A stretch of DNA of 64,000 bases from Verrucomicrobiaceae bacterium (GCA_027486655.1 JAIXOR010000051.1:62001-126000); one strand, 5' to 3'. Positions 8,995 through 61,267 are shown, counted from the first letter of the stretch. Numbers and translations: made by a program. The notes: a model not told the origin generated them from the sequence alone.

Positions 8995-9549
8995 TCAGCG
9001 CGAGCGTTTCGCTTTTTTCGGCTCGAAGGAGACCGCCTTGGCATCGAAGGCCTCGGGATCGTAGCCCGGGTTCATCCACTCGATTTCGCCGTGGAGGGCC
9101 TGCATGTATTGGAAGGTGCCGCCAAAGTCCTCGGGCGGGCAGGCGCGTGCGCCATCGAGCAGTTCCGGGCCTCCTTCGCCGGCCACGCGTTTTTCGAAGA
9201 CGATCTCGTGGATCCATTCATCGGCGAAGTCGTATCGGTAGAGCATGCGGATAGGCAGGCGGCGCTTGCCAAGGAACTCTCCGACGCTGAGCACCGCCTC
9301 GTCCTGGAACTCACCGATGACCTGATCCTGAAGGCCGACGGGGCCGATCACATCGACGAGCCGCTTGCCCTTGCCGTGGCGAAACTCGTGCGGGTGCTTG
9401 TTTTCCCAGCCCATGGCGGCCTGGATGGCATCGCTGAGGGCGATGAAGGTGACGTCGCGGGAGATCGAGAAGCGCCGCCAGATCTGGGGTTGGATGCCGT
9501 AGAGGAAGACCTTCACCACCACCCGGTTCTCATCGCTCGTTTTCGCCAT
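8995..9549 (-). CDS. Plasmid pRiA4b ORF-3-like (PRiA4_ORF3 / IS1096 passenger) family protein
   Basis: The 184-residue protein carries 'VVVKVFLYGIQPQIWRRFSIS' and 'LSDAIQAAMGWENKHPHEF', then 'LYRYDFADEWIHEIVFEK', then 'ACPPEDFGG...YMQALHG'. That is the full motif order of the PRiA4_ORF3 family, first noted on plasmid pRiA4b and as a passenger in IS1096. Function is unknown; the family is widespread and often accessory. The ATG at 9549 fits the family N-terminus, while longer upstream starts add 34 unrelated residues. No transposase or terminal repeats are visible nearby. Confidence 0.85.
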   Translation of the reverse strand: MAKTSDENRVVVKVFLYGIQPQIWRRFSISRDVTFIALSDAIQAAMGWENKHPHEFRHGKGKRLVDVIGPVGLQDQVIGEFQDEAVLSVGEFLGKRRLPIRMLYRYDFADEWIHEIVFEKRVAGEGGPELLDGARACPPEDFGGTFQYMQALHGEIEWMNPGYDPEAFDAKAVSFEPKKAKRSR

Positions 9550-9604
9550 GCACGGAGGATGGCGGGAAACCGGCGTGGGAATCAAACGGGAATTGCAGGA
9601 TGCC

Positions 9605-10687
9605 TCAAAGCAGCCCGGGAGGCAGCAGCGGGGCGAGGTTCTTGATGGCATCCGCCTGGTGGCGGTTGGCGATGAGCAGCGAGTCTCCAGTGCGCACGAT
9701 GATCAGGTCCTCGACGCCGAGCAGGGCCACACGGGTGGCGGGTTCGGCGTTAAAGATGATGTTGTTGCGGGAGCCGATCTCAGTGACCTCGTGATTGGCT
9801 CGGTTGTCATCGCCGTAGGCAGGCAGGTACTTGGCCACGGAGATCCAGGAGCCGACGTCGTCCCAATCGAAGGTCGCGGCGATGTTGAGCACTCGGTCCG
9901 CTTTTTCCATGAGGGCGTAATCGATCGAGCGAGCCGGCAGGCCGGGGAAGCGTTCCGCCACGGTGGCCGGGAGATCCGGCGAGGCGGCGAGTTCCGCGAT
10001 GAACCCGGCGAGTTCCGGGGCGTGCTTCGCGAGTTGCGCGGTGACGGTGGGGATGCTCCAGACAAACATACCGGCGTTCCAGGTGAAGCCACCCTGGCGG
10101 AGGAACTCGGAGGCGAGCTCCGGGCTGGGTTTTTCACGGAAGCAGCGCACCTCGTGGGGCACGTGGGCGGGGGCAAGGCCGGCGATGGAGGCAGGCTCGC
10201 CGCGCTCGATGTAGCCATAGGACGGACAAGGCCAGGTGGGCTGGATGCCGATGGTCACAAGGCCGTCCGAAACGCGGGCTACATCGAGGGCGTCCCGCAT
10301 GACTTCCTGAAACGAGCCGGCATCCTGGATGAGTTGATCGGCCGGCAACACCATCATGACTGCTTCCGGATCGCGTGCGGCGACGAGGCCGATGCCCAGC
10401 GCAACGGCGGGGGCGGTATCGCGTTTCGCGGGCTCTGCGAAGACGTTTTCCGGCGGGATCATGGTGGCGTTTTCGCGCACGGCGGCGGCCTGTTTCTCAT
10501 TGGTGAGAATGAGGATGTTTTCCGGCGGAACCAGTCCTTCGAGGCGGCGGATCGCCTGCACGAGAAGGGTGCCGGAGCCAAATAGGTCGAGGAGTTGCTT
10601 GGGGCGCGCATCGCGGCTGAGGGGCCAGAAGCGGGTGCCGGAGCCACCGGCGAGGATGAGGGCGTAGGTGTGTGCAGCAGATGCCAT
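9605..10687 (-). CDS. manC: Mannose-1-phosphate guanylyltransferase
   Basis: The 360-residue nucleotidyltransferase makes GDP-mannose from mannose-1-phosphate and GTP. The signature LAGGSGTRFWPLSR (residues 12-25) binds the nucleotide and is typical of GDP-mannose pyrophosphorylases. 'CFREKP' and 'FTWNAGMFVW' are the sugar-site motifs, and 'LPADQLI' is the metal-binding region. Length fits the single-domain form without the phosphomannose isomerase fusion. The ATG at 10687 is preferred to a start 20 codons upstream. GDP-mannose feeds cell-surface polysaccharides; an RmlD-like reductase is nearby on the other strand. Confidence 0.9.
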   Translation of the reverse strand: MASAAHTYALILAGGSGTRFWPLSRDARPKQLLDLFGSGTLLVQAIRRLEGLVPPENILILTNEKQAAAVRENATMIPPENVFAEPAKRDTAPAVALGIGLVAARDPEAVMMVLPADQLIQDAGSFQEVMRDALDVARVSDGLVTIGIQPTWPCPSYGYIERGEPASIAGLAPAHVPHEVRCFREKPSPELASEFLRQGGFTWNAGMFVWSIPTVTAQLAKHAPELAGFIAELAASPDLPATVAERFPGLPARSIDYALMEKADRVLNIAATFDWDDVGSWISVAKYLPAYGDDNRANHEVTEIGSRNNIIFNAEPATRVALLGVEDLIIVRTGDSLLIANRHQADAIKNLAPLLPPGLL

Positions 10688-10797
10688 GGGTTCGGCGGAC
10701 TGTTGCCGATTTCCACAGCCGGGGAAAGCCGGAAGCAGGGCGAACATTTTCTTTTCCGCTATTGTCGTCCGCCGGGCCTCCCGCTAGATTCCGGATC

Positions 10798-11121
10798 ATG
10801 TCCGACGAGCACACCGAATCGACCCCCGCTTGGATTGAAACCAGCGCACTCACCGCACCCGCGCTGCTCGGCGCTGCGGCGGGATTGCTGCTGGGAGATC
10901 TGATGCACCGCAGCGCGCGCCGCGGGGTCGGCATCGGCCTGGGCGCTCTGGGCGTGGCCGCGCTGCTTCCCTTCGTGGTGGGTGGCGTGAAAGGTCTCGT
11001 CACCGGCCCGCGCAGCAAGGTCGGCGTGCGCCGCCGCATCCAACGCATCCGCGACGCGGGCATCGGTGCTCCGGATTACGACGAAGTGGATCAGGAGCTC
11101 CGCGAGCAAGGTCTGCTGTGA
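10798..11121 (+). CDS. Small two-helix membrane protein
   Basis: This 107-residue protein has a hydrophobic hairpin: about residues 18-34 (LTAPALLGAAAGLLLGD) and 44-63 (VGIGLGALGVAALLPFVVGG). A basic cytoplasmic tail follows, with 'RRRIQRIRDAGIGAPDYDEVDQELREQGLL'. No named family recognised. The ATG at 10798 is preferred because the upstream extension reads through the divergent promoter region of manC. Its TGA overlaps a GTG start of the following RmlD-like gene (GTGA at 11118-11121), so the two are probably co-translated. Confidence 0.7.
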   Translation: MSDEHTESTPAWIETSALTAPALLGAAAGLLLGDLMHRSARRGVGIGLGALGVAALLPFVVGGVKGLVTGPRSKVGVRRRIQRIRDAGIGAPDYDEVDQELREQGLL

Positions 11122-11996
11122 GCCGCATGCGGATCGCCATCACTGGAACCGGCGGCCGGGTGGGCATGGCCCTCGCCCGTCGTCTCTCCGCGAAACACGA
11201 AGTCATTCCCTTGCCTCGCGGCGTGATGGATCTGGCGGACTCCGCCTCGATCTCAAGCGCGCTCGCGGGACTCGAATGCGACGCCTTTCTCCACCCGGCC
11301 GCTCTCACCAGCTTGGAAGCCTGTGAGGACGACCCGCGCCTCGCCATGCGGGTGAACTCGGCGGCACCTGGAAAAATCGCGCTCTGGGCGGCGGAACGCG
11401 GTGTGCGCATGATCCACTTCAGCACCGACTACGTGTTTGATGGTTCCACAAGCTCGCTGTTGGATGAATCGATGCCGGCCCGGCCGCTGAGCGCCTACGG
11501 ACGCAGCAAGCTCGCCGGAGAACGCACGGTGCTGGCCCATCCGGGGCATCTCGTGCTGCGGGTTTCCTGGGTTTTCGGCATCGAGCGGCCCGCGTTTGTG
11601 GACCGGATCTTCGACGATGCTCTGGCGGGCAAGCCGCTTTCCGCCATCGCGGACAAACTCTCGCTGCCCACCTCCACCGTAGACATCGCGGACTGGGTGG
11701 AGGCTTTGTTAGATGCCGATGCGGAAGGCATTCTCCACGCGTGCAATCCGGGCCCGCCGGTCACCTGGCACGGGATGGCCACCTTCGTCGTGAACGAAAT
11801 GCGCCGCCGGGGCATCCTCTCCAGCACCCCGGAGATCGCCGCCACGCGGTTGGAAGCCGCCGCGGAGTTCCGGGCGCCGAGACCGCGATTCACCGCCATG
11901 GACACCAGCCGCCTGTCCGCGGCGATCGACCGCCCGCTGAGATCCTGGCAAGAATCTCTCGCTGAGCATGTGGCCCTGCGCTGTGCCGCCCGCTGA
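11118..11996 (+). CDS. RmlD-like sugar-nucleotide reductase (dTDP-4-dehydrorhamnose reductase family)
   Basis: The 292-residue Rossmann protein has N-terminal GTGGRVGMALARRLS, then 'CDAFLHPAALTSLEACEDDP' and 'MIHFSTDYVFDGS'. The catalytic-type 'PLSAYGRSKLAGE' (Y-x-x-x-K) and 'RVSWVFG' follow. This is the RmlD substrate-binding arrangement (NADPH-dependent reduction of a 4-keto-sugar nucleotide). Start is GTG at 11118, overlapping the stop of the upstream gene; an ATG at 11127 is the alternative. No rmlA/B/C genes are visible, so the exact substrate cannot be stated. Confidence 0.82.
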   Translation: MSRMRIAITGTGGRVGMALARRLSAKHEVIPLPRGVMDLADSASISSALAGLECDAFLHPAALTSLEACEDDPRLAMRVNSAAPGKIALWAAERGVRMIHFSTDYVFDGSTSSLLDESMPARPLSAYGRSKLAGERTVLAHPGHLVLRVSWVFGIERPAFVDRIFDDALAGKPLSAIADKLSLPTSTVDIADWVEALLDADAEGILHACNPGPPVTWHGMATFVVNEMRRRGILSSTPEIAATRLEAAAEFRAPRPRFTAMDTSRLSAAIDRPLRSWQESLAEHVALRCAAR

Positions 11997-12091
11997 TCCC
12001 TTGTTTGAGGGATGCCGGGAAAGAAACCCGGGGCAATTGAAAGAATTGGCGTGAAATCGGCCCGGCACGCGCCGTAGTGCAGCTTTCCACC

Positions 12092-13429
12092 ATGAGTCAA
12101 CCCACCACGACCGACCGCCGGAGCGTCCTCAGGATGCTCGCCGCCACCAGCGCCGCTCCCCTCATTCTTCCGAGCCGCTTGTTCGGAGCGGATGCGCCAT
12201 CGAACAAAATCACCATCGGCTGCATCGGCGTCGGCTGGCAGGGCGGTGGAAACCTCGATGCCATTCTCGCCCTCGACGATTGCCGGGTGCTCGCCATTTG
12301 CGATGTGGATGAGCAGCATCTCAAGGCGGCCGTGGACAAGGTCAACGCGCGCTACGGAAACCAGGACTGCAAGGGCTACAAGGATTTCCGCGAGCTTATC
12401 GCGCGCAAGGACATCGATGCGGTCGCCATTTCCACGCCCGATCACTGGCACTCCATCCCCGCCATCGCCGCAGCCAATGCCGGCAAGGACATCTTCTGCG
12501 AAAAACCGCTCTCCCACCGCCTCGGTGAGGGCATCGCGATGGTCGAAGCCGTGCAGAAAAACCAGCGCATCTGGCAGACCGGATCGTGGCAGCGCAGCGT
12601 GGCCTCCTTCCGCTGGGCTGCGGAACTTGTTCAAAACGGCTATCTCGGCAAGGTCACCCGGGTCGAGGTGGGCCTGCCCTCCGGCCACTCGGACTTCGGG
12701 GGCACCGGCAACGACAAACCCGACGGTCCCGTGCCCGCTGGCGTCGATTATGAAATGTGGACCGGGCCCGCGCAGATGCTGCCCTTCAACCCCTGCCGCT
12801 TCCACAAGAACTGGCGCTGGAACTACAACACCGGCGGCGGACAGCTCCTCGACTGGATCGGCCACCACTGCGACATCGCCCACTGGGGCCTCGCCAACCC
12901 GAAGTTCGGCTGCGGACCGGACGATGCAGTAGGCCCGCTCGAAGTCTCCGCCACTGCCGAGTTCCCCGACCCGAAAGCCGTCTGGAACACCGCCACCAAG
13001 TTCCGCGTGGAATGCAAGTATCCGAACGACGTCGAGTTGCTCATCTCCGGAGGACACCCGGACGTGGCCGGCGGTGCCAAGTGGATCGGCCCCAACGGCT
13101 GGGTCAGCGTGGATCGCGGCAAATTCACCGCCTCCAACGTCGAATGGATCCGCGAGATCCAGAAACGTGACAAAGCCGGCGATTTGGAAATCCAACTCTA
13201 CAAGAGCCCCGGGCACTTCCGCGAGTGGATCGATTCGATCAAGTCCCGCAAACGCACGCTCACCCCGGTCGAGATCGCCCACCGTTCGCAGACGCCGGGC
13301 CACCTCGGCTACATCGCCTCGGTCACCGGCAGAAAGATCAAGTGGGACGCCGCCAAACAGGAAATCATCGGCGACGCGGAAGCCACCAAACTGATGCAGC
13401 CGGAAATGCGCGCGCCCTGGAAACTTTGA
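12092..13429 (+). CDS. Tat-exported Gfo/Idh/MocA family oxidoreductase
   Basis: The 445-residue protein has a twin-arginine signal, 'TDRRSVLRMLAATSAAPLI'. The mature enzyme begins 'KITIGCIGVGWQGGGNLDAIL', a Rossmann NAD(P) motif. 'DAVAISTPDHWHSIPAIAAANAGKDIFCEKPLS' is the family signature with the catalytic E-K-P. The middle 'NWRWNYNTGGGQLLDWIGHHCDIAHWGL' holds the usual His-rich substrate-site segment of Verrucomicrobia/Planctomycetes members. It probably oxidises or reduces a sugar or sugar acid in the periplasm with a carried cofactor. The ATG at 12092 is favoured over a GTG five codons upstream. An imperfect hairpin follows at 13481-13504. Confidence 0.9.
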   Translation: MSQPTTTDRRSVLRMLAATSAAPLILPSRLFGADAPSNKITIGCIGVGWQGGGNLDAILALDDCRVLAICDVDEQHLKAAVDKVNARYGNQDCKGYKDFRELIARKDIDAVAISTPDHWHSIPAIAAANAGKDIFCEKPLSHRLGEGIAMVEAVQKNQRIWQTGSWQRSVASFRWAAELVQNGYLGKVTRVEVGLPSGHSDFGGTGNDKPDGPVPAGVDYEMWTGPAQMLPFNPCRFHKNWRWNYNTGGGQLLDWIGHHCDIAHWGLANPKFGCGPDDAVGPLEVSATAEFPDPKAVWNTATKFRVECKYPNDVELLISGGHPDVAGGAKWIGPNGWVSVDRGKFTASNVEWIREIQKRDKAGDLEIQLYKSPGHFREWIDSIKSRKRTLTPVEIAHRSQTPGHLGYIASVTGRKIKWDAAKQEIIGDAEATKLMQPEMRAPWKL

Positions 13430-54842: not shown

Positions 54843-55030
54843 TCAACGCGAACTGGCTCCCGCAGCCACGCCTTTCACATCCAGGTCCGGCCGGGTGTTC
54901 CAGCGGGGAGTCCAACCGGGCTTTCCAATCCGGGTGCGGAAGACAACTGTGTTGTCGAGCGCAAGATCCTTGGTCCAGATGAAGCGGGCCCCTTCGAAAT
55001 CGTTTCCATCGTAGGGAGCCTTCGGGTTCA
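54843..55030 (-). pseudogene. Out-of-frame 3' tail of the YHYH-PEBP gene
   Basis: Immediately after the stop at 55028 the other frame continues coherent coding: 'AVEFSEEDVNPKAPYDGNDFEGARFIWTKDL' to 'GKPGWTPRWNTRPDLDVKGVAAGASSR' and a stop at 54843. It reads as the natural continuation of 'MKLRVYADNWF' in the preceding frame. One base missing in the short stretch around 55040-55050 would restore a single protein of about 643 residues. This may be a real mutation or a sequencing error. Confidence 0.7.
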
Positions 55031-56773
55031 CGTCCTCTTCCGAGAACTCAACGGCATGAACCAGTTGTCCGCGTACACTCGGAGCTTCATGGTATCGTCA
55101 AAGGTCGGCTTGATCCACGAGGACGATCCGTCGTCCTGACGCATGCGCGGATCGGACAGCTCCGGACTGCGTCTGGATGGGATTTTCGGAAGGCCTTGAT
55201 CCGGAGATCCTCCGGGGCCGCGCGGTCTTTCCGCCCCGCCGGCACTTGTATGGATGACCCGCAAGGAAGAGCTCGCCAGCACCCTGCCCTTGATGGCTGC
55301 CAGAAGCGCGTCGCGATCCACACTTTCCGGCAGACCGGGTGCGAGTGGCGCGGATAACGCAAAAAGGGTGATCACGTAGGTCCTCGCGCCAGGTCCCTTC
55401 GACATGGGTGGTTCGTATCCGATCCTTCCGCGGAATCCGGTGCCCGGCTTGCCCACATCGCCGGAACCTTCCTTGAGGCTGGTGCAGCTGCCGGGAATGC
55501 CATGGAGAATCCAATACCACTTGGGTTGCCCTTTGGGATCGATGTGATCCATGATCAATGCGAATGCGGTGGTGTTCTTCGGCGCACCTGTCCAGACCAG
55601 AGGAGGAGAAACTCCAAGACCCTGGCCGGTGAACCTCGCAGGCAGTTCCCCCATGTCCTCGACCACCGGACTGGAGAGACGAAAGGTGCCATCGCTGCTG
55701 CGGGGTGGCTCCGCCCCGGCGGCGTGCACCTTGCCTTCGCGTCGAGCAGGTGCGTCCCGGCCTGGCTTGGGCCGAGGCGCGCGCACCTGCGTAACGGACT
55801 CTGTTCGGCCATCGTTGACGACAAACCGACTGTTGCCGTCAGCCCCTTGCGTCACAGCGACCGTGCGCTCCTCACCATCCACGGCGTATGTCACCTTGCA
55901 GCCTTGCTCCCCCACTTTTTGGAAGCCGGTGATTGCGGCCCCCTTGAGAGCGGGCAGGGACTCCCTCACAGGCGTTGCGCGCGGTTGCGGGTCCACCTGC
56001 CCATCACGTTCCACCACTTCTCCATGGAAACCGCCCATGACGAAGGGGTAGCTGCTTGAGGCGTGATAGTGATAGCCCAGTTCCGAATGACTGTGGCCAC
56101 GGAATCCATCGAGGTTGGCGGGAAGAGTCCCATCCGGCTCGGTGAGACCCAGGATGGGGTAGCCGTCCATGGCATAGGCGATTGGCAAGCGGGGGCCCGT
56201 GGTTTTCTGTAGGTGGAGCGGCGCGACATGATAGTGATAGTCGTCCGCGCGTCCACAGTGCCCACCCCATTTGTCGAGTTCACCGATATCGAGCGAGATC
56301 TCCCCGCGATTGTTTTGTGGATTGAAGATCGGGACTCCGTTAGCAGCAATGGCGATGGCACCGCGGAGGAACCGGTTGCGAATCGAGACTCCCTGTTTTG
56401 CCGGCACCGGGAAAAGAGGCAGACGCCAGGCGTTTTCGGCACGGTAGTTCTGGGGAAGCGGCAGCTGCTGCTGCCACGCGGTGATTCCCACCATCATGTC
56501 ATGTGCGGGCAGTCCGTTGCTTTCGATGTAGAGATAGGCGTCATCCCAGCGCGTGCGCACGGCCGGAGCAAACATTGCGAACGATGCGGCCTGCGGTGGT
56601 TTGCGGCTGGAATCATCCGGCCTTGCCTGCGCTTCACTCCCCGACCGGGAAGATGATATCTGGCGGGACGAAGGCTCCATGTGGACGGAGGCTGGACCAT
56701 TGCCAACGATCTCATGGGCTCGCAGCGAGACAAGGGCGGCAAAGAAAAGGAATATGATGGATATGGATTTCAT
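55028..56773 (-). CDS. Secreted YHYH-domain plus PEBP (YbhB-like) protein
   Basis: The 581-residue protein as read has a signal peptide (about 1-19). The YHYH domain (about 80-285) has the naming motif twice, residues 179-182 ('ADDYHYHVAP') and 234-237 ('LGYHYHASSSYPFVMGG'), and the His-rich 'GFRGHSHSELG'. After a linker comes a phosphatidylethanolamine-binding (YbhB) domain (about 365-505, 'GLGVSPPLVWTGAPKNTTAFALIMDHIDPKG', 'WYWILHGIP'). The final 'KLRVYADNWF' then goes out of frame. It is the last gene of the sigma/anti-sigma/sulfatase operon; its ATG overlaps the stop of the upstream sulfatase by 4 bases. Ligand unknown. Confidence 0.85.
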   Translation of the reverse strand: MKSISIIFLFFAALVSLRAHEIVGNGPASVHMEPSSRQISSSRSGSEAQARPDDSSRKPPQAASFAMFAPAVRTRWDDAYLYIESNGLPAHDMMVGITAWQQQLPLPQNYRAENAWRLPLFPVPAKQGVSIRNRFLRGAIAIAANGVPIFNPQNNRGEISLDIGELDKWGGHCGRADDYHYHVAPLHLQKTTGPRLPIAYAMDGYPILGLTEPDGTLPANLDGFRGHSHSELGYHYHASSSYPFVMGGFHGEVVERDGQVDPQPRATPVRESLPALKGAAITGFQKVGEQGCKVTYAVDGEERTVAVTQGADGNSRFVVNDGRTESVTQVRAPRPKPGRDAPARREGKVHAAGAEPPRSSDGTFRLSSPVVEDMGELPARFTGQGLGVSPPLVWTGAPKNTTAFALIMDHIDPKGQPKWYWILHGIPGSCTSLKEGSGDVGKPGTGFRGRIGYEPPMSKGPGARTYVITLFALSAPLAPGLPESVDRDALLAAIKGRVLASSSLRVIHTSAGGAERPRGPGGSPDQGLPKIPSRRSPELSDPRMRQDDGSSSWIKPTFDDTMKLRVYADNWFMPLSSRKRT

Positions 56774-58170
56774 GAGCCGGATGGGATCGCGGGGTGGGGT
56801 TTTCTGCCACGCTTTCCACCCGCGCCCTTTGGTTCCCGGCCTTGTCTGGGAGAGGAGGACGGATCATAGGCGGGATTCGGCAGGGTGGGTCTGGGGGCCT
56901 TCATGTTTGCCTGCCATGCATGCAGCCTGGAGAGCAATTCGCGCGACTTTCCGGATTCCGAATCACTGAGGTCCCTGGATTCTCCGGGGTCACTCGGAAG
57001 ATGGTATAACTCGCTGGTTCCGGATTCAAAGAACTCGATGAGCTTCCACTCGCCGCTGCGAATGGCACTGCAAGGCCCCGCACCACCGATGTAACAGGGG
57101 AAATGCCAGAAAACATCCCGCTCCGGGAGGCGCGAGCCGTCCCGCAGAAGCGGGACCAGACTTTGGCCATCCGCCGCGGGAGAACCCTCACCTTTCCATC
57201 CGGCGAGTTCCATGACGGTGGGAAACCAATCCATACTCAGGATGGTGGCGTCCGATGACACGCCGGACCGGATTCCGGGTCCGCGCACCACGGCAGGAAC
57301 GCGCAAACCACCCTGATAGAGGGATCCCTTGCCACCCCGCAGCGGAGCAACGTTGCCACGGGCACCACCATTGTCCGACGTAAAGATCACGTGGGTCCGC
57401 CCCGCCACACCGGAGTCCTCAAGAGCCTTCAACAGACGTCCGACGTTGGCATCCATGCCTTCGACGGTGGCGGCAAGGGCCGGATCCCGCACACCGACGC
57501 GGGCTTGATACTTGGCAAGCAGCTCCGGCTTGGGGTCGTGCGGCGCATGAACATCATGAAATGCCAGGTAGAGGAAGAATGGTTTGTTCCTGACCGACTC
57601 CATCCACTTCAAGGCGGAATCCGTAAGGACGTCCGGAGAGTAGCGACCGGATGCATCACGATACTCATCCTTTTCGAAACCCAACATGCGCGGCTCGACG
57701 AACACGTCAAAGCCCTGACCGGTCGGAGTGGTCGGACCACTGCGGCCTCTGCCGAGGTTCCACATGCCGAACATGCCGGTCGCATAGCCTGCGGGTTTCA
57801 AGGCTTCGGCGAGTGTGGATGTCTCCGCAGGCAAGGCCTCCCGGCTTTCCGCGGCGAGCACGCGATGATGAGGGGAGCCCGGGGCATGCCGTTCGTCCAC
57901 CACCGTGTAGACCCCGTGCCGGGGCGGATACAGTCCGCTCAACAGACAGGCCCGGGTGGGCGCGCAATTCGGCGCACTGGCGCAGGCCTGTGGGAAAACC
58001 ACGCCTTCTTTCGCCAAACGGTCAAGGTGGGGCGTGTCGATGGAGGCTGCTCCGCAAAAGCCCGCCTCGTTCCATCCCATGTCATCGGCAAGAATCAATA
58101 TGAAGTTCGGCCTAACAGCAGCACTTGCGGCGATGAGTGAAACCAACCATGTTCCGATCAAGGTTTTCAT
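56770..58170 (-). CDS. Secreted formylglycine-type sulfatase
   Basis: The 466-residue S1-family sulfatase has a signal peptide (about 1-18), metal-binding 'FILILADDMGWNEAG' (D29, D30) and the formylglycine motif C69-A-P-T-R ('PNCAPTRACLLSGLYPPRHG'). It also has 'FHDVHAPHDPKPELL' and 'VIFTSDNGGARGNVAPLRGGKGSLYQGGLRVPAVV' (D-N and K). The C-terminal 40 residues are basic and Pro-rich. It hydrolyses a sulfate ester, probably on a polysaccharide. C69 must be converted to formylglycine by a maturase not seen here. It overlaps genes on both sides by 4 bases in the operon. Confidence 0.92.
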   Translation of the reverse strand: MKTLIGTWLVSLIAASAAVRPNFILILADDMGWNEAGFCGAASIDTPHLDRLAKEGVVFPQACASAPNCAPTRACLLSGLYPPRHGVYTVVDERHAPGSPHHRVLAAESREALPAETSTLAEALKPAGYATGMFGMWNLGRGRSGPTTPTGQGFDVFVEPRMLGFEKDEYRDASGRYSPDVLTDSALKWMESVRNKPFFLYLAFHDVHAPHDPKPELLAKYQARVGVRDPALAATVEGMDANVGRLLKALEDSGVAGRTHVIFTSDNGGARGNVAPLRGGKGSLYQGGLRVPAVVRGPGIRSGVSSDATILSMDWFPTVMELAGWKGEGSPAADGQSLVPLLRDGSRLPERDVFWHFPCYIGGAGPCSAIRSGEWKLIEFFESGTSELYHLPSDPGESRDLSDSESGKSRELLSRLHAWQANMKAPRPTLPNPAYDPSSSPRQGREPKGAGGKRGRKPHPAIPSGS

Positions 58171-59597
58171 GGCCCTCCTTTCCGCTGGCCTTTTCCGCGC
58201 CTGCCTTCCTTCCCACCCCTTGCGGGTGTTGGGTCGCTTCCGGGGACGAAGTCCGGATCCGGTCCGGGCATGCGGGCCCCGGCTTCATCTAGCCTGGCAC
58301 GGAGTTCCCGCTCCAGCCTTGCCGCTTCCTGCACACGGGATTCCGACAGGTCGTTGCGCTCCCCGGGATCCTTGGAGAGATCGAAGAGCATCCGGCTGCC
58401 ATCCTCGTGGCGAAGCAGGAGTTTCCAGTTTCCATCGCGTAGGGCGGACTGTGGCGTGTCTCCCTGGTAATGCGGAAAATGGAAGAGAAGAGAAGAGGAC
58501 CGGCGTTGAACGGGCCGGTCCTCTCCCATGAGCAGCGGCGTCAGGTCGCCACCGTCGAGGGTCGCTGGCAGCGGCTCCTTCACGCCTGCCCAACGGCAGA
58601 AAGTCGGAAACCAGTCATAGGCGACCACCGGTTGATGGCACCAGGCACCTGGCTTCACTCCCGGTCCGCGGACGATGAAGGGCACGCGGATCCCTCCTTC
58701 CCACAAGCCCCCTTTTCCTCCACGCAAGCCGGTGGCCCTTCGGTTTCCACCTTTGGCCCCGCCTCCACCGCCTCCGTTGTCCGCCATGTAGATGATGTAG
58801 GTGTTCTTCTCGAGACCCAGCTCGCGCACCGCATCGAGAAGGAGACCCACACCGGTGTCCAGATCCAGACTGATGGCAGCTCGCTCCGGATCGCGGTGCA
58901 TGCGCCCGGGGGCTTTGGAGGTGAAGTGGGCGATGCTGGATTTCATGGCGTTGCCCGGCACATGGAGAGCGTGATAGGACATCTGGAGATAGAACGGCTT
59001 GGAGGTCCGCGCCTGATTGCCGATGAAGTCCCTGGCGCGGGAAGTCATTCCAAAGATATCGACAGGATTGGGGTCCTTGTGGGGATCGGCATCGCGATTA
59101 CCGGTGTCTCCATCACTGACGTCAAAACCGTGCTTTTCAGGGCCACCTCCTGACAGATGCCACTTCCCAAAGTGAGCGGTGGCATAACCGGCGCGCCGCA
59201 GCATCTCGCCGAGAGTGACCTCGGGTTCCAGGATGGCCTTTCTGGAAGCCGCTTCCACCAGCATGTGGCCTTCTTCCGGAGGCGCGGCCTTTGTCCAACC
59301 GAGTCGAGCCGGCGTCATGCCCGTTTGCAGGCTGATCCGTGTGGGAGAGCAAACCGGGGCCGGCGAGTATCCGTTGGAAAACCGCATGCCGTCGGATGCG
59401 AGTTTCTCGATGCGCGGCGTCTCGTGATAATCGCTGCAGGAATCCGGCATGTCCGGATGCATCCGTGTCGACAAGCCGTTCCAATCCTGATCATCGGCAA
59501 GCAGGAGAATGATGTTGGGCCGTGAGGGGACGGAAGCTTCGGTGGCCGACGCGGAAAGCGCCGCCACCAGCAAGGCGTGGAACAGTCGAGGGATCAT
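58167..59597 (-). CDS. Secreted formylglycine-type sulfatase
   Basis: The 476-residue protein is a second S1-family sulfatase of the operon. It has a signal peptide (about 1-22), 'IILLLADDQDWNGLS' (D35, D36) and C83-S-P-T-R in 'PVCSPTRISLQTGMTPARLG'. It also has 'FGKWHLSGGGPEKHGFD', 'QMSYHALHVPGN' and 'IIYMADNGGGGGGAKGGNRRATGLRGGKGGLWEGGIRVPFIV'. The C-terminus is basic ('GGKEGRRGKGQRKGG'), as in its neighbour. It differs clearly from the downstream sulfatase, so the two probably act on different sulfated linkages. ATGA overlaps at both ends indicate translational coupling with the anti-sigma gene and the second sulfatase. Confidence 0.92.
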   Translation of the reverse strand: MIPRLFHALLVAALSASATEASVPSRPNIILLLADDQDWNGLSTRMHPDMPDSCSDYHETPRIEKLASDGMRFSNGYSPAPVCSPTRISLQTGMTPARLGWTKAAPPEEGHMLVEAASRKAILEPEVTLGEMLRRAGYATAHFGKWHLSGGGPEKHGFDVSDGDTGNRDADPHKDPNPVDIFGMTSRARDFIGNQARTSKPFYLQMSYHALHVPGNAMKSSIAHFTSKAPGRMHRDPERAAISLDLDTGVGLLLDAVRELGLEKNTYIIYMADNGGGGGGAKGGNRRATGLRGGKGGLWEGGIRVPFIVRGPGVKPGAWCHQPVVAYDWFPTFCRWAGVKEPLPATLDGGDLTPLLMGEDRPVQRRSSSLLFHFPHYQGDTPQSALRDGNWKLLLRHEDGSRMLFDLSKDPGERNDLSESRVQEAARLERELRARLDEAGARMPGPDPDFVPGSDPTPARGGKEGRRGKGQRKGGP

Positions 59598-60559
59598 GGG
59601 GACTGGAGACGGGGATACGAGGGTTCAAAGAAATCGGGGGCTAGAGGGGTGGTGGATTGGAGCACGAAAGCAATGCCCCTTGGTCCGCCGCCTGCCTGAG
59701 GCAACTGGCGCAGGATCATTCTGAGCAGCAGACCCTTCTCGGGATCAAACCAGAGTTCGATGTCCTTTGCGCCTCCTTGGGAAGCCGACTTGCGGGTGCC
59801 GCGGAGTTTCCATACGCCCTTGCCGGGGCGGTCCAGCCAATCGATCTGATAGAACGCCTTCAACTCGCGGAGTTGGTGGTTGAGATCCGCAAGTGCGAGT
59901 TCCCTGCCTTTGGAGACCACTCCCCCGCCGAAACGCTCCGGATCCCCGCTGAGGCGGACAGGACCTGCCCCTCTCCGGCTCCAGCTTGCCGCGCCATTGC
60001 TGCCGAGATAGCGGGTTTCTCCATTTGGCAGCGCCTGTTTGAGAACGAAACAACGCTCTCCGCGAATCCAGATCGTGGCTCCGTGAAGGTGGCGGCCGAC
60101 GGGGAAGCGGCCGCGATCCTCGCCCGGCAACTCATTCGCGGATGACCCTTCCTCCAACACCTCGATCCGGTAGGAGAGGTCCTGCGTCTGACCAAAGCGG
60201 GAAATCACCTGATCCAGCGCCCCGGATGCGGGTGCAGGCAACAAAGGCATGATGACCAGAAAGGCAAGCGCCGCGCTGGCGGCAGCGGAAAGCCAGAGGT
60301 GAACCCGGGCTCGTTTTCGCGGAAGGGTTCTGTTTTCGATCTCCCTGAAGAAACCCAGCCGGTCCTCGGCAAAGGAACCACAACGGGCTTCCACCGCCAA
60401 AAGGGCGTGCAGGGCGGCTTGGTCGAGAAAACGTCTGCGAGATCGGGGGGAATCCGCGAGGTGTCGACCGAGTTCCTGCTGTTCCAGATCACCGGCCAGT
60501 CCATGGAGATGGAGCTGGATGAGATCGTCCAATGCCGGCTGGGGGGCCCGTGATTTCAT
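59594..60559 (-). CDS. Membrane anti-sigma-factor-like protein with LolA/RseB-like outer part
   Basis: The 321-residue protein has an N-terminal ~85-residue cytoplasmic region ('LDDLIQLHLHGLAGDLEQQELGRHLADSP', like the helical anti-sigma domains of FecR-type regulators). One transmembrane helix follows (about 87-108, VHLWLSAAASAALAFLVIMPLL). The outer domain has 'NGAASWSRRGAGPVRLSG', 'KGVWKLRGT' and 'IELWFDPEKGLLLRM', resembling LolA/RseB folds. It starts at 60559, overlapping the sigma-factor stop by 4 bases, and ends overlapping the sulfatase start. Gene order and topology suggest it holds the sigma factor inactive until an envelope signal arrives. Confidence 0.78.
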   Translation of the reverse strand: MKSRAPQPALDDLIQLHLHGLAGDLEQQELGRHLADSPRSRRRFLDQAALHALLAVEARCGSFAEDRLGFFREIENRTLPRKRARVHLWLSAAASAALAFLVIMPLLPAPASGALDQVISRFGQTQDLSYRIEVLEEGSSANELPGEDRGRFPVGRHLHGATIWIRGERCFVLKQALPNGETRYLGSNGAASWSRRGAGPVRLSGDPERFGGGVVSKGRELALADLNHQLRELKAFYQIDWLDRPGKGVWKLRGTRKSASQGGAKDIELWFDPEKGLLLRMILRQLPQAGGGPRGIAFVLQSTTPLAPDFFEPSYPRLQSP

Positions 60560-61086
60560 GGCCTCGGGAGATGCAGGGATTTCTGGATGCAGCCCAGGAG
60601 CGAGAGGTGTGCGTGTTTCAGGATCTTGTAGACCGCCATTTCTGTGACTTCGCGGGATCTCGCGATCTCTCCCACCGAACGATCCTCTTGGTATCGCTGG
60701 TGAAGCGTGAGTCGCTGATGGTCGGTCAGCGACTTCATGCACTCGTGCAGTGCCTCGCGTCTGGAATCCTGTTGTTCGGCGTGCGGCAGCGCCTCTTTGG
60801 AGAGGGCTTCGAGGGTTTCCTCATCAAGCGGCAGCGGTTTGCGCTGCTGCGCACGCCACCATTCGAGGGCCACCAATCGCGCAAACCCCAAACCCCACGC
60901 CACAAAAGGCCGTCCATCGTCATAGGTGCCGAACTTTTTCCACAAGCGGCCGGCCAGGTCCTGGAGCAGGTCGTCCGCGGCATGCAGGTCATGCGTGATC
61001 GCAACAAAGTAACCCTGAAACGCAGCTTGGTTTGCGACAAACAGGCGAGTGAATGCGAGTTGGGGTTCAGCGGGAGGTTCGGACAC
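60556..61086 (-). CDS. ECF RNA polymerase sigma factor (Rhodopirellula/Verrucomicrobium type)
   Basis: The 176-residue ECF sigma factor has region 2 'AFTRLFVANQAAFQGYFVAITHDLHAADDLLQDLAGRLWKKF' and 'PFVAWGLGFARLVALEWWRAQQRK'. Region 4 is 'CMKSLTDHQRLTLHQRYQEDRSVGEIARSREVTEMAVYKILKHAHLSLLGCI'. The wording matches the PVC-specific group (TIGR02989-like). It heads a five-gene operon with 4-base overlaps: anti-sigma-like protein, two sulfatases, YHYH-PEBP protein. It probably transcribes its own operon. The 61087-61267 spacer is divergent with a lipoprotein gene and would hold the promoter; I cannot identify the boxes. Confidence 0.9.
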   Translation of the reverse strand: MSEPPAEPQLAFTRLFVANQAAFQGYFVAITHDLHAADDLLQDLAGRLWKKFGTYDDGRPFVAWGLGFARLVALEWWRAQQRKPLPLDEETLEALSKEALPHAEQQDSRREALHECMKSLTDHQRLTLHQRYQEDRSVGEIARSREVTEMAVYKILKHAHLSLLGCIQKSLHLPRP

Positions 61087-61267
61087 GGGTTACACCGGGT
61101 ATTGTCGCCAGGAATGGGAAACTAAACCTCCGGGAGGCAAAAATGTTCCTGCAAACCCCGGCAACACGGCGGTGATGATTTTTTGTCTGTCCCCATGTGT
61201 GCATTGGCCATCAGGATTCAAGATTCGGATGGCCGCGGCGCGGCGGGTCTGCGATACTCGGGCCACA

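Follow-up and report, generated by a model that had tools for sequence, protein, structure and literature searches.

Five adjacent minus-strand genes in a 64,000-nucleotide stretch of DNA from a Verrucomicrobiaceae bacterium (GCA_027486655.1, JAIXOR010000051.1:62001-126000; "the window" denotes this whole stretch) appear to form a regulatory unit in which a sigma factor of the extracytoplasmic function (ECF) type and a membrane-bound partner control two exported sulfatase-family proteins and an exported YHYH-PEBP protein. The gene order recurs in other Verrucomicrobia, and the sigma gene is preceded by a promoter-like motif that is conserved alongside similar sigma factors and has a single match at 0-2 mismatches in its own genome. 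We interpret the operon as a dedicated, autoregulated ECF switch with a LolA-like sensor that drives the sulfatase pair and the YHYH-PEBP protein, a reading to which we assign a probability of about 60%. The features concerned, in the direction of transcription, are as follows.

61099..61128, minus strand: putative autoregulatory promoter core, GGTTTAGTTT-N12-GACAATAC, 12 nt ahead of the sigma GTG start.
60556..61086, minus strand: ECF-type sigma factor, 176 amino acids, GTG start (TIGR02937, PF04542, PF04545).
59594..60559, minus strand: putative membrane anti-sigma factor, 321 amino acids (position, topology, shared N-terminal domain, AlphaFold model).
58167..59597, minus strand: exported S1 sulfatase 1, 476 amino acids (PF00884, 152 bits; 9fo1 alignment, E 1e-73).
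56770..58170, minus strand: exported sulfatase-family protein 2, 466 amino acids (PF00884, 204 bits; 9fo1 alignment, E 9e-95).
55028..56773, minus strand: exported YHYH-PEBP protein, 581 amino acids, truncated (PF14240, PF01161, alignment with relatives).
54843..55052, minus strand: remains, out of frame, of the YHYH-PEBP protein's third (C-terminal) domain (tblastn to the C-terminal domain of the G014 homologue).

The conservation scans covered the bacterium's own group and the contigs of the named genomes. The complete order sigma, anti-sigma, sulfatase 1, sulfatase 2, YHYH-PEBP is found in six other metagenome-assembled genomes of Verrucomicrobia (L082, L086 (=G014), L087, L088, L102 (=G364, L185), and L121), so the arrangement that the original prediction suggested searching for is not unique to this strain. 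In G002 and G024 the order is interrupted solely by contig ends, and in G018 an LTXXQ protein takes the place of the fifth gene. The three effector genes of L082 are those of the window, placed behind a divergent pair of sigma factor and LolA-type anti-sigma (27-28%). Divergent pairs of the same kind, with a YHYH gene directly behind them, occur in another family of the order (G056) and in another family of the class (G197). In G006, G019, and G029 the gene after a close sigma/anti-sigma pair encodes a protein that includes PEBP. The one in G006 (L064:8680-12264) unites the domains FGE-sulfatase, PEBP, and arylsulfotransferase in a single protein, and the PEBP-bearing proteins of L065 and L066 resemble it.

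Overlaps of 4 bp had been reported at all four junctions of the operon (60556-60559, 59594-59597, 58167-58170, and 56770-56773), and these positions proved exact, as did the families named: an ECF-type sigma, two PF00884 sulfatases, and a protein matching PF14240 (YHYH) and PF01161 (PBP). The further claim that such overlaps are rare does not agree with the count: across the window and its relatives, 40 of 174 same-strand gene pairs lying close together have one. The ATGA overlap is kept at many junctions; L082, L087, L088, and L121 are spaced otherwise at some of theirs, and gaps of 4, 8, 20, or 22 nt occur at some junctions of the relatives. Because the overlaps are common and variable between relatives, they are no evidence for fixed stoichiometry, and this earlier conclusion was dropped. 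The five genes probably constitute one transcription unit.

Immediately upstream of the promoter core lies an A/T-rich block (GGAACATTTTT). The consensus GGTTTRRTTT-N12-GACAATAC is common to 12 operons with a sigma factor at least 46% identical, where it ends 12-19 nt ahead of the start codon and has a mean information content of 1.72 bits per motif column versus 0.42 in the flank; most of these operons have an A/T-rich block containing AACWTTT ahead of it. The window contains a single match at up to 3 mismatches (0.02 expected). In the bacterium's own genome the single match at 0-2 mismatches is exact and lies at the operon, with five more at 3 mismatches as against two for the reversed-motif control. 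G014, G018, G002, G024, and G006 each likewise have a single exact copy, located at the sigma gene. Second copies with 1 mismatch stand directly ahead of an arylsulfotransferase gene in G006 and G019, and what may be a second copy in G018, also with 1 mismatch, is followed by no more than a 67-amino-acid open frame. At four loci with sigma factors 26-29% identical the motif is absent and another upstream block is common to them. A scan for housekeeping-type promoters returned one site, away from the operon start, with 1.1 expected by chance. For the bacterium's own genome, the single match at 0-2 mismatches led us to reject a broad regulon. These patterns suggest that the motif is the promoter of the operon's own sigma factor. 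The assignment of -35 and -10 elements is likewise provisional; with GACAATAC as the -10 element, the leader would be just a few nt long.

Two side observations concern the promoter region of relatives. The distant sigma genes of L082, L067, L068, and L186 share an upstream block of about CGTCAYACT-N15-CATAMT near the start codon. In G025 (L071:7950-9700) the promoter motif and the first 26 sigma codons are retained, the rest of the sigma gene and the anti-sigma gene are gone, and sulfatase 2 is only a stub, through either deletion or assembly collapse.

The sigma factor belongs to the ECF superfamily by its matches to TIGR02937 (63 bits; cut-off 42.9) and, above cut-off, to PF04542 and PF04545. 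Its score against TIGR02989, the Rhodopirellula/Verrucomicrobium family, is 119.3 bits and thus marginally short of the curated cut-off of 124.55, and from its sequence it is best described as TIGR02989-like only and close to that family. The next gene encodes a protein whose N-terminal domain is placed in the cytosol, followed by a single transmembrane helix (about residues 86-107, taken from sequence and model) and a predicted periplasmic domain (residues 108-321). It has no Pfam match, and NCBIfam at E<=0.1 gave one sub-threshold, unrelated, and uninformative match. Four other proteins share its N-terminal domain; all four are encoded by a gene that immediately follows a related ECF gene, and three of them carry FecR and/or LamG-type domains. 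Position directly downstream of the sigma gene, the single transmembrane helix, and the shared cytosolic domain are the features of a membrane anti-sigma factor, and the cytosolic part most likely sequesters the sigma factor. The proposal of a sigma/anti-sigma pair controlling sulfatases and a YHYH-PEBP protein is well supported by the conserved order and the motif, while the label "anti-sigma" itself has no family match behind it.

In the AlphaFold model, residues 108-321 resemble LolA (Foldseek, 4mxt, E 6.7e-8; VIA, Z 12.5, root-mean-square deviation 3.7 over 175 residues) and RseB (2v43, E 2.5e-5; Z 10.8, 4.0 over 170 residues), and LolA, RseB, LppX, and LprG folds are the best fold matches of this domain. 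The protein therefore looks like a modular anti-sigma factor whose periplasmic half is modelled as a LolA/RseB-like sensor. The closest parallels are the sigmaE-RseA-RseB and AlgU-MucA-MucB systems, which likewise combine an ECF sigma, a single-pass membrane anti-sigma, and a periplasmic sensor of the RseB/LolA fold. In contrast to these, the predicted sensor here is fused to the anti-sigma and has no match to known families at the sequence level, the apparent promoter target is one rather than a broad regulon, and the outputs are sulfatases and a YHYH-PEBP protein. The TIGR02989-type ECF factors of Verrucomicrobia with FecR/LamG-type anti-sigmas share the sigma type and the anti-sigma N-terminal domain, whereas the periplasmic part is here LolA/RseB-like in its predicted fold instead of FecR plus LamG.

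Sulfatase 1 has the canonical catalytic motifs CSPTR, GKWHL, DNGG, and GGKG together with the metal ligands of an S1 sulfatase. In protein 2 the formylglycine motif is CAPTR, but GMWNLGRG replaces GKWHLG, and the catalytic Lys/His pair (K123/H125 of arylsulfatase A and 9fo1) is Met136/Asn138. This substitution is present in all 19 distinct members found of the protein 2 clade; of 157 motif matches in the loci scanned, some of which overlap one another, 106 read GKWHL and 29 GMWNL, the latter all in this clade. The nearest solved structures of both proteins are the kappa-carrageenan sulfatase 9FO1 and kappa-carrageenan / N-acetylgalactosamine (GalNAc) sulfatases. Both share with S1_16-like sulfatases (AMOR_S1_16A, PDB 9FO1) the fold family, the formylglycine motif, and the metal ligands. 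Trp79, the S1_16 signature in AMOR_S1_16A numbering (PMC11760155), is however missing from both, its column in the 9fo1 alignments holding Ala in protein 1 and Val in protein 2, and protein 2 also departs from these enzymes in the K123/H125 pair. Matches above cut-off in the bacterium's own genome number six for the FGE domain and 37 for sulfatases, which makes formylglycine maturation plausible. A fusion of the two sulfatases was observed in G049 (L074:11908-15528).

The loss of the Lys/His pair raises the alternative, compatible with every reading of the regulation, that protein 2, though a member of this superfamily, is no sulfatase: it would hydrolyse phosphonates or phosphate esters, or serve sulfatase 1 as a non-catalytic binding partner. 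Besides the invariant Met/Asn of the clade, which usually adjoins a canonical sulfatase 1, this is favoured by the phosphonate monoester hydrolase BcPMH, which has Tyr/Thr at the two positions where the sulfatases compared with it have Lys/His (PMC4014121). Against it, protein 2 retains the formylglycine motif, the metal ligands, and the remaining sulfate-binding His and Lys, so that some sulfatase activity is possible. We regard this alternative as having nearly an even chance; more broadly, protein 2 probably has another ester specificity or acts as a binding partner.

The last protein exceeds the cut-offs for both of its domains (PF14240, 40.2 bits against 25; PF01161, 68.1 bits against 24). 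YHYH domains are predicted to be Zn-dependent hydrolases on the basis of three conserved histidines and one aspartate (PMC7824862), and the His-rich YHYH motifs are invariant in the alignment of relatives. The model of the G014 homologue is weak in the YHYH domain (mean predicted local distance difference test (pLDDT) 58.9), and a fold search with it gave PEBP only (3n08, E 1.4e-12). The match to PF14240 and the conserved His/Asp residues are shared with known YHYH proteins (PMC7824862), from which the present one differs in that PEBP and a C-terminal domain of no assigned class are fused to it and its gene lies in an operon with sulfatases. YHYH genes adjoin or are fused to sulfatases in several relatives, with fusions in G004 and G002 (L051:8666-12103, L077:12792-16478), which supports a common pathway rather than any particular reaction. 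The genome also contains, apart from the five-gene operon, two adjacent YHYH genes (530 and 581 amino acids) without a PEBP match near a sulfatase gene (L004, C76:90000-109999, at 9261-12595).

In the window itself this gene is truncated. The original prediction had let it run to 54843, but the frame stops at 55028, and the alignment with relatives places the sequence from 55052 to 54843 out of frame. The YHYH and PEBP domains are whole and the third domain is gone after "ADNWFM"; the remnant (VEFSEEDVNPK...RWNTRPDLDV) is 64% identical by tblastn to residues 133-212 of the G014 C-terminal domain. About 113 residues and the reading frame are lost in a domain that is whole in most relatives. Either a mutation or an assembly error may account for this.

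Taken as a mechanism, the dedicated switch would work as follows. The sigma factor would recognize GGTTTRRTTT-N12-GACAATAC right before its own gene, and because this would be the sole promoter copy in the genome, the circuit would be a closed positive-feedback switch and not a broad regulon. The cytosolic half of the single-pass anti-sigma would hold the sigma factor, and the periplasmic LolA/RseB-fold half would do the sensing, in the manner of RseB for RseA but within one polypeptide. Binding of a ligand, presumably hydrophobic or derived from the envelope, would free the sigma factor and turn the operon on. The exported outputs would be a canonical S1 sulfatase, a sulfatase-family hydrolase without the Lys/His pair, and a YHYH-PEBP protein for which a metal site is predicted. 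Several points count against this interpretation. The A/T-rich block could be the -35 element and GGTTT the -10, with GACAATAC as a leader element. The anti-sigma model has a mean pLDDT of 70 and was built from 10 sequences, a fold in common with LolA and RseB is no proof of ligand binding, and within the phylum the family is rare, with 4 of 387 genomes at E<=1e-15. With its last gene truncated, the window's own copy may be less than fully functional.

A more specific form of the proposal, in which a fusion of an anti-sigma with an RseB-like lipid sensor runs a single-target, self-amplifying operon and the second sulfatase, as a member of a new clade of formylglycine hydrolases lacking the catalytic Lys/His pair, acts on a sulfate- or phosphate-ester substrate jointly with a YHYH metal protein, is put forward tentatively. 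It also seems possible, if rather unlikely, that the pair monitors the state of lipoproteins or outer-membrane lipids, as RseA/RseB do, and that the effectors serve to remodel the envelope or exopolymer of the cell itself. The best fold matches of the sensor are binders of lipids or lipoproteins, and the sulfatases of Rhodopirellula baltica respond to stress, with a proposed role in forming the cell wall or exopolymers (PMC2754498). Classical envelope-stress sigmas, however, run broad regulons where there is one apparent target here, and the operon lacks a protease or chaperone.

The remaining alternative is an operon for sulfated-polysaccharide utilization with an anti-sigma that senses oligosaccharides, as RsgI-type anti-sigma factors do, its LolA-like domain being a carbohydrate or protein-interaction module and not a lipid sensor. 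We consider it unlikely. Against it, none of the five genes encodes a glycoside hydrolase, a polysaccharide lyase, a TonB receptor, or a transporter, the predicted sensor is LolA/RseB-like rather than lectin-like, and the S1_16 signature Trp79 is in neither sulfatase. In its favour are the kappa-carrageenan and GalNAc sulfatases nearest in structure to both proteins, the LamG lectin-like domains of anti-sigmas elsewhere that share this N-terminal domain, the numerous sulfatases that bacteria of the Planctomycetes-Verrucomicrobia-Chlamydiae (PVC) group have for sulfated glycans (PMC6388578), and the 37 sulfatase matches above cut-off in this genome.

A search of the available literature found no described system of YHYH proteins with sulfatases, of a Verrucomicrobia ECF/anti-sigma pair with sulfatases, or of a LolA-type anti-sigma. 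If the dedicated switch is real, it would connect, in one small unit, the chemistry of sulfate esters in the Verrucomicrobia, which are rich in sulfatases, with an ECF regulator that has its own LolA/RseB-type sensor. The promoter motif offers a direct sequence handle for finding such switches and their targets, and the GMWNLG clade is a natural, conserved experiment on residues considered essential in sulfatase catalysis.

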